Shown here one piece after another: positions 1 through 19,324 of a DNA stretch of 21,475 bases. The DNA comes from Candidatus Poribacteria bacterium. GTDB lineage: Bacteria; Poribacteria; DTPJ01; WJIO01. Location: NCBI GenBank assembly GCA_014730235.1, contig WJIO01000150.1, positions 1-21,475 of the forward strand. Reading direction: 5' to 3'. The translations under genes were made by a program, and so were the position numbers. The notes beneath the pieces are model-generated. The model saw nothing but the letters and a program-made list of their open reading frames with translations, ran no database searches and was not told the DNA's origin. Every line of letters starts with the position of its first letter. Within the stretch, counting starts at the first letter, position 1.

Positions 1-28
1 ATTATAACCACACTTAACCCGGAAGAAA
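1..28. mobile_element. Right end of a MITE-like element, cut by the window start
   Basis: The first 28 bases read as one terminus of the repeat family seen complete at 19089-19209. The shared word is ACCACAC..AACCCGGAAGAA, and the closest match is the right end of the copy at 9037-9156. The rest of the element lies outside the window. It stops about 11 bp before the first DnaA box, so a mobile-element relic borders the origin. There is no coding capacity. Confidence 0.6.
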
Positions 29-6092: not shown

Positions 6093-6336
6093 GGTTCTTC
6101 TGGTTTTCGTGTGGTAGTAATTTGAAAATTCTCTCAGCTTGTCATTCCTGCGAAAGCAGGAATCCAGAAGTTTAACATAATGACTGGATTCCCGCCTCAA
6201 GCCTTTTTGAAAAAAACTTGAGTAAAAAGGAATCAGGATTTCGAAGGAATGACAAAAATGACAAACAAAGTAGGTTTTTCTCTTATAATTTAATTTGTTA
6301 TCTTTCTTCATTTATCAAACGAAATCCGGAAGAACC
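6093..6336. mobile_element. MITE-like element enlarged by a nested repeat, gyrB-gyrA spacer
   Basis: The termini GGTTCTTCTGG and CCGGAAGAACC at 6093 and 6336 match the element family of 19089-19209. The flanks AGCTGTTT (6085-6092) and AGCAATTT (6337-6344) agree at six of eight bases, as expected of an aged 8-bp target duplication. This copy is 244 bp instead of about 120 bp. Inside are a TCATTCCTGC-GAAA-GCAGGAAT hairpin (6142-6163), then GACTGGATTCCCGCC and GGAATGAC. That arrangement is typical of another widespread palindromic intergenic repeat, probably inserted or expanded here. It has no credible coding content. Confidence 0.65.
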
Positions 6337-6371
6337 AGCAATTTTCAATTAATCTTTTCAAATCTCTCCTG

Positions 6372-6386
6372 ATGGGTAAAGCCCAT
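6372..6386. repeat. Short hairpin repeat ATGGG-CCCAT
   Basis: ATGGGTAAAGCCCAT forms a short hairpin and is followed by TATTA. The same unit recurs as AATGGGCGAAGCCCATTATT at 19244-19263. In both places it lies about 35 bp downstream of the right end of a MITE copy. The rest of the 432-bp gyrB-gyrA gap (about 6390-6497) shows nothing recognisable before the gyrA ribosome site. Confidence 0.5.
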
Positions 6387-6510
6387 TATTACCCCTTATT
6401 AAGCGGGAAAAGGCTTTGCCTATTAAGTGAAAGGGTGAATAGATTTTCTTGAAATTGCTTATAAACATACACAAAGTACTGATCAAACGTCCAAACTGGA
6501 GAGATAAAAA

Positions 6511-8985: not shown

Positions 8986-9036
8986 TAAGCCGATGTCGAT
9001 ACACCGGAAATCAGCGTAATTTATACTAAAACTTTT

Positions 9037-9156
9037 GGCTCTTACGGGTTCATTGTGTAAAAGATAAAGAACTTCTTTATGCTTTCATTCCTGCTTTTGC
9101 AGGAATGACAGGCTGAGGAAATTTTCAATTATAACCACACCAAACTCGGAAGAACA
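9037..9156. mobile_element. MITE-like element downstream of gyrA, with 8-bp target duplication
   Basis: The element is about 120 bp, with a left end GGCTCTTACGGGTTCATTGT and a right end reading CTCGGAAGAACA. It is flanked by AAACTTTT at 9029-9036 and 9157-9164, an exact 8-bp direct repeat. An internal perfect hairpin TCATTCCTGC-TTTT-GCAGGAATGA lies at 9085-9108. Its termini are more diverged than those of the 19089 copy, suggesting an older insertion. The hairpin could also act on the gyrA transcript end, but no U-run follows it. Confidence 0.8.
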
Positions 9157-9166
9157 AAACTTTTTT

Positions 9167-15334: not shown

Positions 15335-15462
15335 GTCATTCTAAGCAAAGCGAAGAATATCATCCTTTTGTCATTCCTGTTTTTACAGGAATGATATGCT
15401 TAAATGCTTAGAAAATTTTCAAAGTATCTCCATATTTCCTTATGTAAGTACCATTTGGATTA
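15335..15462. mobile_element. Mosaic of truncated repeats upstream of the Gfo/Idh gene
   Basis: The 292-bp spacer before the oxidoreductase contains three pieces. At 15335-15365 is a copy of the GAAGCGAAGAAT repeat also present at 1641-1671. At 15371-15394 is a perfect hairpin TCATTCCTGT-TTTT-ACAGGAATGA, and with the following AGAAAATTTTCAA it matches the interior of the MITE at 9037-9156 but lacks both termini. At 15426-15462 is the TCTCCATATTTCC..ACCAT..GGATTA arm seen at 1840-1877. At both places the MITE fragment directly abuts this arm. No promoter is evident. Confidence 0.5.
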
Positions 15463-15492
15463 GGAAGTATTTTTATAGCGATGGAGTAACTC

Positions 15493-18893: not shown

Positions 18894-18959
18894 ATAATAC
18901 ATACTGATATTTCTAAAAATTAACTAAAAATATCGCGGTGCTTAAAGAGCCACTAGCAA

Positions 18960-19010
18960 ATGAAAATGCTAACAGAATGACATATGACTATATTTGTTGA
19001 GCATTTTCAT
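18960..19010. repeat. Inverted repeat in the etfB-etfA spacer
   Basis: ATGAAAATGCT at 18960-18970 is the exact reverse complement of AGCATTTTCAT at 19000-19010. The stem can be extended by AACA/TGTT with one bulged base. It could be a hairpin in the etf transcript or the remains of another repeat. No T-tract follows directly, so a simple terminator is not supported. Confidence 0.45.
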
Positions 19011-19088
19011 CCGTTTCTTGATGCCGAATTCTTATAAACATTGGTTTTAGAGATTTTTTTAGAATTCTCAGTGCATATAAGCATTTTT

Positions 19089-19209
19089 GGTTCTTCCGGG
19101 TTCAGTGTGGTAATAGTTTGAAAATTCTCTCAACCTGTCATTCCTGCGAAAGCAGGAATGACAGCATAAAGAAGTTCCTTATCTTTACCACACTGAACCC
19201 GGAAGAACC
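19089..19209. mobile_element. Intact MITE-like element with 25-bp terminal inverted repeats and 8-bp target duplication
   Basis: The element is 121 bp. Its ends, 19089-19113 and 19185-19209, are perfect inverted repeats of 25 bp, beginning GGTTCTTCCGGGTTCAGTGT. The flanks GCATTTTT at 19081-19088 and 19210-19217 are an exact 8-bp direct duplication, the mark of transposase-mediated insertion. The centre carries a perfect hairpin CTGTCATTCCTGC-GAAA-GCAGGAATGACAG (19135-19164). It has no coding capacity, so an autonomous partner elsewhere must supply transposase. GGYTCTTC-type ends with 8-bp duplications are reminiscent of ISL3-family insertion sequences; that link is inferred. It separates etfB from etfA. 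Confidence 0.9.
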
Positions 19210-19243
19210 GCATTTTTCAGAAAAAATATTCAACTTTTCCTCT

Positions 19244-19260
19244 AATGGGCGAAGCCCATT
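19244..19260. repeat. Short hairpin repeat AATGGGC-GCCCATT
   Basis: This is a perfect seven-base-arm palindrome with a GAA loop, the second copy of the unit at 6372-6386. It again lies about 35 bp beyond the right end of a MITE copy. The remaining bases up to etfA (19264-19324) show only the ribosome binding site at 19311-19315. Confidence 0.5.
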
Positions 19261-19324
19261 ATTCAACCTTAATCCATAACGCATCAATGATTACTGTTCA
19301 CCAAAAACACAGGAGCATAAATAA

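Follow-up and report, generated by a model that had tools for sequence, protein, structure and literature searches.

The window, i.e. the whole stretch of 21,475 nucleotides of Candidatus Poribacteria DNA analysed here, includes the genes etfB (PF01012) and etfA (PF01012 and PF00766), separated by a 432-bp spacer in which a MITE is located. The features of this element, and the related sequences elsewhere in the window, are as follows.

1-28, minus strand: right end of a MITE, truncated by the contig boundary
1804-1838, plus strand: lone left end of the arm B type, with a different repeat after it
6093-6336, plus strand: 244-bp composite with GG ends and REP material within, without target duplication
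9029-9164, minus strand: a second complete MITE at 9037-9156, oppositely oriented and bordered by exact AAACTTTT duplications
15369-15396, no strand: bare REP-type hairpin without MITE ends
19081-19088, no strand: left-hand copy of the target duplication (8 bp, GCATTTTT), identical to 19210-19217
19089-19209, plus strand: GG-type MITE, 121 bp, non-coding (sequence inspection and own-genome matches)
19089-19113, plus strand: left terminal inverted repeat, 25 bp, GGTTCTTCCGGGTTCAGTGTGGTAA
19089-19135, plus strand: arm A, the terminal repeat plus ...GAAAATTCTCTCAACC, ending at the hairpin (arm clustering)
19136-19163, no strand: central REP-type hairpin, TGTCATTCCTGC-GAAA-GCAGGAATGACA
19164-19209, minus strand: arm B, from the right end inward the terminal repeat plus ...AAGATAAGGAACTTCTTTATGC (arm clustering)
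19185-19209, minus strand: right terminal inverted repeat, 25 bp
19210-19217, no strand: right copy of the target duplication GCATTTTT, identical to 19081-19088

The element in the spacer is as the sequence-only reading had described it, with terminal inverted repeats that are perfect over exactly 25 bp and an exact duplication of 8 bp, and its 121 bp contain no long ORF. The central hairpin (TGTCATTCCTGCGAAAGCAGGAATGACA) is a palindrome except for its 4-base loop; the RNA fold of the entire element has an energy of -74.3 kcal/mol (z = -15.2 with respect to shuffled sequences), and Rfam gave no match in the window. The element has 82 matches in its own genome (E<=0.001), the closest paralogue being 98% identical. 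Considering its perfect ends, perfect duplication and nearly identical paralogue, the label of a recent insertion that it had been given is fair, for a copy that cannot be dated and for which no empty site was found. A decayed copy of a third repeat family (18904-19071, with ends CTGATATTTCTAAAA... and CTGAGAATTCTAAAA...) lies 17 bp upstream of the MITE, so that the etfB-etfA spacer is mostly made of repeats. A short repeat, CTAATGGGCGAAGCCCATTATT, is present at 19218-19273 and 6337-6407, directly after two GG elements, and elsewhere in the genome a GG copy is inserted within this repeat.

Five further whole or partial copies had been proposed in the window, and four of them stood. The copy at 9037-9156 is flanked on both sides by AAACTTTT, as had been noticed, and its terminal ends agree at 15/25 positions only, which marks it as an older copy. 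The ends of the composite at 6093-6336 agree at 20/25 positions, and its flanking 8-mers (AGCTGTTT and AGCAATTT) differ. The sequences at 1-28 and 1804-1836 are also genuine, whereas the one at 15371-15422 has no terminal repeat, but only the hairpin, and is therefore not a MITE copy. A 61-bp repeat occurs at 1836-1896, where it adjoins the lone GG end, and again, 77% identical, at 15421-15481, near the bare hairpin. The contig break at position 1 falls inside a MITE; TTATCCACA and TGTGGATAA boxes (11-bp tandem repeats) are clustered at 36-170, just upstream of dnaN-recF-gyrB-gyrA, and this cluster is probably the replication origin.

The assembly containing the window is a draft of 5.53 Mb in 451 contigs, 92% complete. 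A search for the 21-base MITE end over the whole of it returned 696 occurrences (353 + 343, <=3 mismatches), compared with none for the reversed pattern, in agreement with the high-copy family that had been proposed. A sample of 1.36 Mb, taken in stretches, was studied in detail and contained 369 ends (<=5 mismatches) and 125 adjacent inverted pairs spanning 52-244 bp. The flanking 8-mers were identical in 49 of the 124 testable pairs, while shuffled pairings predicted 0.71, and exact flank matching peaked sharply at this length (9 at 7 bp, 1 at 9 bp). The duplications are 89% AT, with a consensus of approximately AAAWWTTT. The 49 elements with exact duplications show no similarity to one another in their flanks, and 42 distinct sequences occur among their TSDs, which implies dozens of independent insertions. 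ORFs of >=150 aa cover 86% of the sequence, yet not one of the 125 elements is entirely contained in such an ORF. From 303 kb of contigs picked regardless of content, which contained 39 ends and 13 pairs, the number of recognisable elements in the genome can be extrapolated to roughly 240.

Insertion is proven by nested copies whose paralogous sites are uninterrupted. The GG copy at G000:C224:7231-7351 interrupts a MITE with GTAATCGTTAAAAAATG ends (GTAA-type), with TCATTTTT as TSD, and other copies of the interrupted MITE read through the insertion site. Likewise, a 141-bp GG copy (L158, 19589-19729) lies in a repeat, and paralogues of this repeat can be aligned through the junction, gap-free over up to 85 bases; in a third nested case (L099, 4881-5006) the duplication has one mismatch. 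The transposition proposed in the sequence-only reading is thereby confirmed, and with a target duplication of fixed length across copies, multiple independent insertions and empty sites, the feature in the window is an ordinary, convincingly demonstrated MITE.

As to the enzyme involved, mobilisation of the ISL3 type had been suggested from the ends and the duplication length. The MITE end (GGTTCTTCCGGGTT) fits the ISL3 pattern, sharing GGYTC(T/A)TCCG with verified ISL3 ends and about 15/22 positions overall. Among these, a Pseudodesulfovibrio element has the end GGTTCATCCGGCTAAAGCGTAC and an exact 8-bp TSD, and the ends from Rhodococcus and Calothrix begin with GGCTCTTCCG... (GGCTCTTCCGACTTGG/GGCTCTTCCGAGTTAG and GGCTCTTCCGTACTT, respectively). 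Three fragments of ISL3 transposases (PF01610) are present in the Poribacteria genome itself, all at contig ends; one of them ends in GGTTCATCCGGTTAATGCGTAG, which matches the MITE end at 15/22 positions and diverges from it beyond position 13. An autonomous partner was sought through ISL3 domains in the own genome and in relatives, duplication-flanked pairs of GG ends up to 3.5 kb apart, and ORFs adjacent to unpaired ends. No autonomous element with the full 21-22-bp end, i.e. the complete insertion sequence whose search had been recommended, was found in the 1.36-Mb sample or in 84 genomes of the phylum, all searched as incomplete assemblies; viral contigs gave no exact MITE end, and plasmids no MITE match. 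Among the candidates considered, elements of 270-1200 bp with similar ends in genomes G007 and G029 had no recognised transposase ORF among those listed, and an end match in G040, beside a coding sequence and with no partner end, is probably due to chance. Related ends (GGYTCTTCAGRGTTAAGTGTG) with 8-bp duplications do occur in other genomes of the phylum, in some cases at contig breaks sharing a duplication, as expected of a multi-copy element left unassembled. In genome G004, there are three contig-end pairs (C17/C8, C29/C25 and C21/C23) whose two members have an 8-bp duplication in common, adjoining GGCTCTTCAGAGTTAAGTGTG / GGTTCTTCAGGGTTAAGTGTG ends, as if one such element were missing from the assembly. 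On the AT-rich 8-bp duplication, the shared GGYTC(T/A)TCCG ends and the ISL3 remnants in the genome, an ISL3 transposase appears well supported as the most likely driver; in the absence of an autonomous element with the full end, this is the best inference and not a proof. The MITE differs from the ISL3 insertion sequences, which share its GG-starting ends and 8-bp duplication, in having no gene and in the inner part of its end, which matches no ISL3 element examined here.

The internal hairpin had been regarded as a further sign of recent transposition. It is, however, a REP shared with other repeat families, and therefore no evidence of this. The short symmetric form was found 378 times in the whole assembly (<=2 mismatches; control 0), and the 1.36-Mb sample contained 216 hairpins GTCATTCCTGC...GCAGGAATGAC. 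Clustering of their flanks gave several types of arms, all stopping at the hairpin. The common GG MITE, to which 90 of about 206 hairpins belong, is built from arms A and B; GG-type ends are also found on arms C to F, arms G and H have GTAATCGTTAAAAAATG ends, and arms I and J come from the third repeat family. GG elements with arm C occupy a constant position within a larger repeat, ATTTTACATCCCTGTGTTATTGCGAAGAACGGAGTAACAAA... (L082 2986, L084 10082, L171 3299 and 8557, L174 14750, L198 4743, L163 15215), which suggests that this repeat multiplied after the GG insertion. The GTAA family has 235 ends at <=1 mismatch (e.g. L162 9317-9440 and L165 11155-11277) and 5-bp duplications, exact in 10/24 cases, which points to a different enzyme; a 91-bp form of it lacks most of the hairpin. 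Since ends and duplication lengths both differ between the GG and GTAA elements, at least two MITE families share one core.

The core itself is variable. Its two commonest short forms are symmetric hairpins of 26 bp, with GAAA or TTTC as the loop. TTCC, AAAA and TTTT loops were also found, as were a hairpin of 47 bp, an asymmetric form of 67 bp and a form of 70 bp, GTCATTCCTGC-GAAA-GCAGGAATCCAG...CTGGATTCCTGC-TTTC-GCAGGAATGAC; the 4-base-loop, 47-bp and 70-bp types are each represented in several families or at least two. The size steps of about 21 bp among elements (120, 141, 162) come from these different loop types, so that helical phasing was rejected as their cause. In a 2013 survey (PMC3733652), a CGTC-1 REP is described as an 8-bp stem starting with AT, a 4-base loop, a C/TGTC tag and a CCA tail, and is said to form head-to-head dimers commonly. 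The stem, loop and tag are all recognisable here (TGTC-ATTCCTGC-GAAA-GCAGGAAT), while the unpaired CCA tail is present in the dimer-type cores and missing in the 26-bp symmetric form, which has a second tag instead. By that definition, the 70-bp core can be classified as a head-to-head CGTC-1 REP dimer, and the internal hairpin, judged by its sequence, as a CGTC-1-type REP, single or dimeric, that is not specific to the GG MITE. A search of G001, an order-level relative, gave no MITE ends at <=2 mismatches; its REPs are of the canonical TGTC...CCA type, and their flanks vary.

About 30 of the approximately 206 hairpins in the 1.36-Mb sample are chimeric, with a GG arm on one side and, on the other, one from the GTAA or the third family. 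Arms were called by alignment over 30 bases with a threshold of 8, while the 95th percentile of shuffled arms was 6 and their maximum 11. A few calls may therefore be wrong, although most of the printed examples are plain by eye. In several of these elements (L206 4205, L197 11168, L163 18566) the GG arm begins within the terminal GTAATCGTTAAAAAATG of the other element, which would be the remnant expected if a GG element had inserted into the AT-rich end and the DNA between the two identical hairpins had then been deleted. Some mixed GG/GG elements carry exact duplications (L098 4273-4466, L093 8766-8927), and hence transposed as units, and at L204 11380 an IJ-type segment between GG ends is likewise flanked by an exact duplication.

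It could be objected that the hairpin belongs to the MITE as such and serves, for example, transposition or RNA stability, and that its likeness to a REP is coincidental or derived from the MITE. Among the 49 elements with exact duplications, 46 were indeed scored as having the hairpin, and a hairpin or remnants are present in the remaining three; the occurrence of the same hairpin in GTAA-ended MITEs, in the third repeat family and as bare copies, along with the canonical REPs of G001, a genome devoid of MITE ends, makes this explanation highly improbable. The hybrids could also be artefacts of short-read assembly at palindromic repeats. Several of the 451 contigs of this draft do start or stop in or near MITEs, and some of the chimeric joins might be assembly errors of this kind; as an account of the hybrids in general it is distinctly improbable, considering that, for a mis-join, a shared hairpin of 26-47 bp is short and that the mixed GG elements and the IJ-type segment mentioned above are bordered by exact duplications.

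As for the driver, 8-bp duplications are not unique to ISL3. Another GG-ended family producing them (IS1595, IS6 or an undescribed one) could move the MITE, and, in addition to the lack of a matching autonomous element, the ends in G004 and G029 are 19/21 identical to the MITE end and have 8-bp duplications in assemblies with no ISL3 domain. This alternative is nevertheless unlikely in view of the ten-base agreement with verified ISL3 ends and of the ISL3 fragments in the genome; as regards IS1595 only, its transposase domain is absent from the genome. A RAYT was rejected as the driver of the REP core, because no REP lies within about 1.5 kb of the only Y1 transposase gene in the genome (3.4-kb locus). 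REPINs resemble the present system in that paired inverted REPs are the repeated unit, and differ from it in having REPs that flank the Y1 transposase gene.

The ends, the duplications, the hundreds of copies, the intergenic placement and the nested insertions with uninterrupted paralogous sites are all directly observed, as is the same core joining half-elements in unrelated repeat families of one genome. The element, about 120 bp long, is very probably a non-autonomous MITE that carries a CGTC-1-type REP core as a passenger and is mobilised through its GGYTCTTCCGGGTTYAGTGTGG ends by a DDE transposase of the ISL3 type. The transposase would be supplied in trans and would generate the AT-rich 8-bp target duplications; the passenger core appears in several copies still as a head-to-head dimer, and the 26-bp symmetric hairpin may be this dimer minus its middle, lost across internal direct repeats. 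Chimeras would arise in two steps, the insertion of one element into another and then recombination or slippage between the two identical hairpins, with deletion of the intervening DNA.

Small size, lack of coding capacity, terminal inverted repeats, target duplication, intergenic location and hundreds of copies are shared with bacterial MITEs of the NEMIS, RUP, Nezha and MITEAba12 type, whereas the REP core common to unrelated families and the combinatorial arms are not. With the CGTC-1 REPs, including Neisseria dRS3, as described in PMC3733652, the core shares the 8-bp stem ATTCCTGC and 4-base loop, the head-to-head dimers and, in its dimer form and in G001, the TGTC tag together with the CCA tail; instead of being scattered as units, it mostly lies within MITEs in this genome, as a symmetric hairpin. 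A parallel in the same text is Halothiobacillus neapolitanus, where CGTC-1 dimers lie within 41-bp palindromes; the passage on it describes no terminal repeats, duplications or chimeras, which are measured here in a Poribacteria genome.

What is unusual, therefore, is not the MITE, but the REP core common to, and apparently exchanged between, MITE families. Tentatively, and as a possibility rather than a probability, CGTC-type REPs may have spread here as exchangeable cores of several unrelated MITE families, with their hairpins acting as recombination points that swap half-elements and thus yield new MITEs, a picture drawn from one genome in a draft assembly. According to the 2013 survey (PMC3733652), CGTC REPs have no dedicated transposase and no linkage to transposase genes, and the way in which dRS3 and its relatives multiply was an open question. 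Where such REPs lie inside MITEs with duplications and nested empty sites, the order of events can be read, which makes the question of their multiplication testable, and the joining of halves of old elements would be a possible route to new MITE families.
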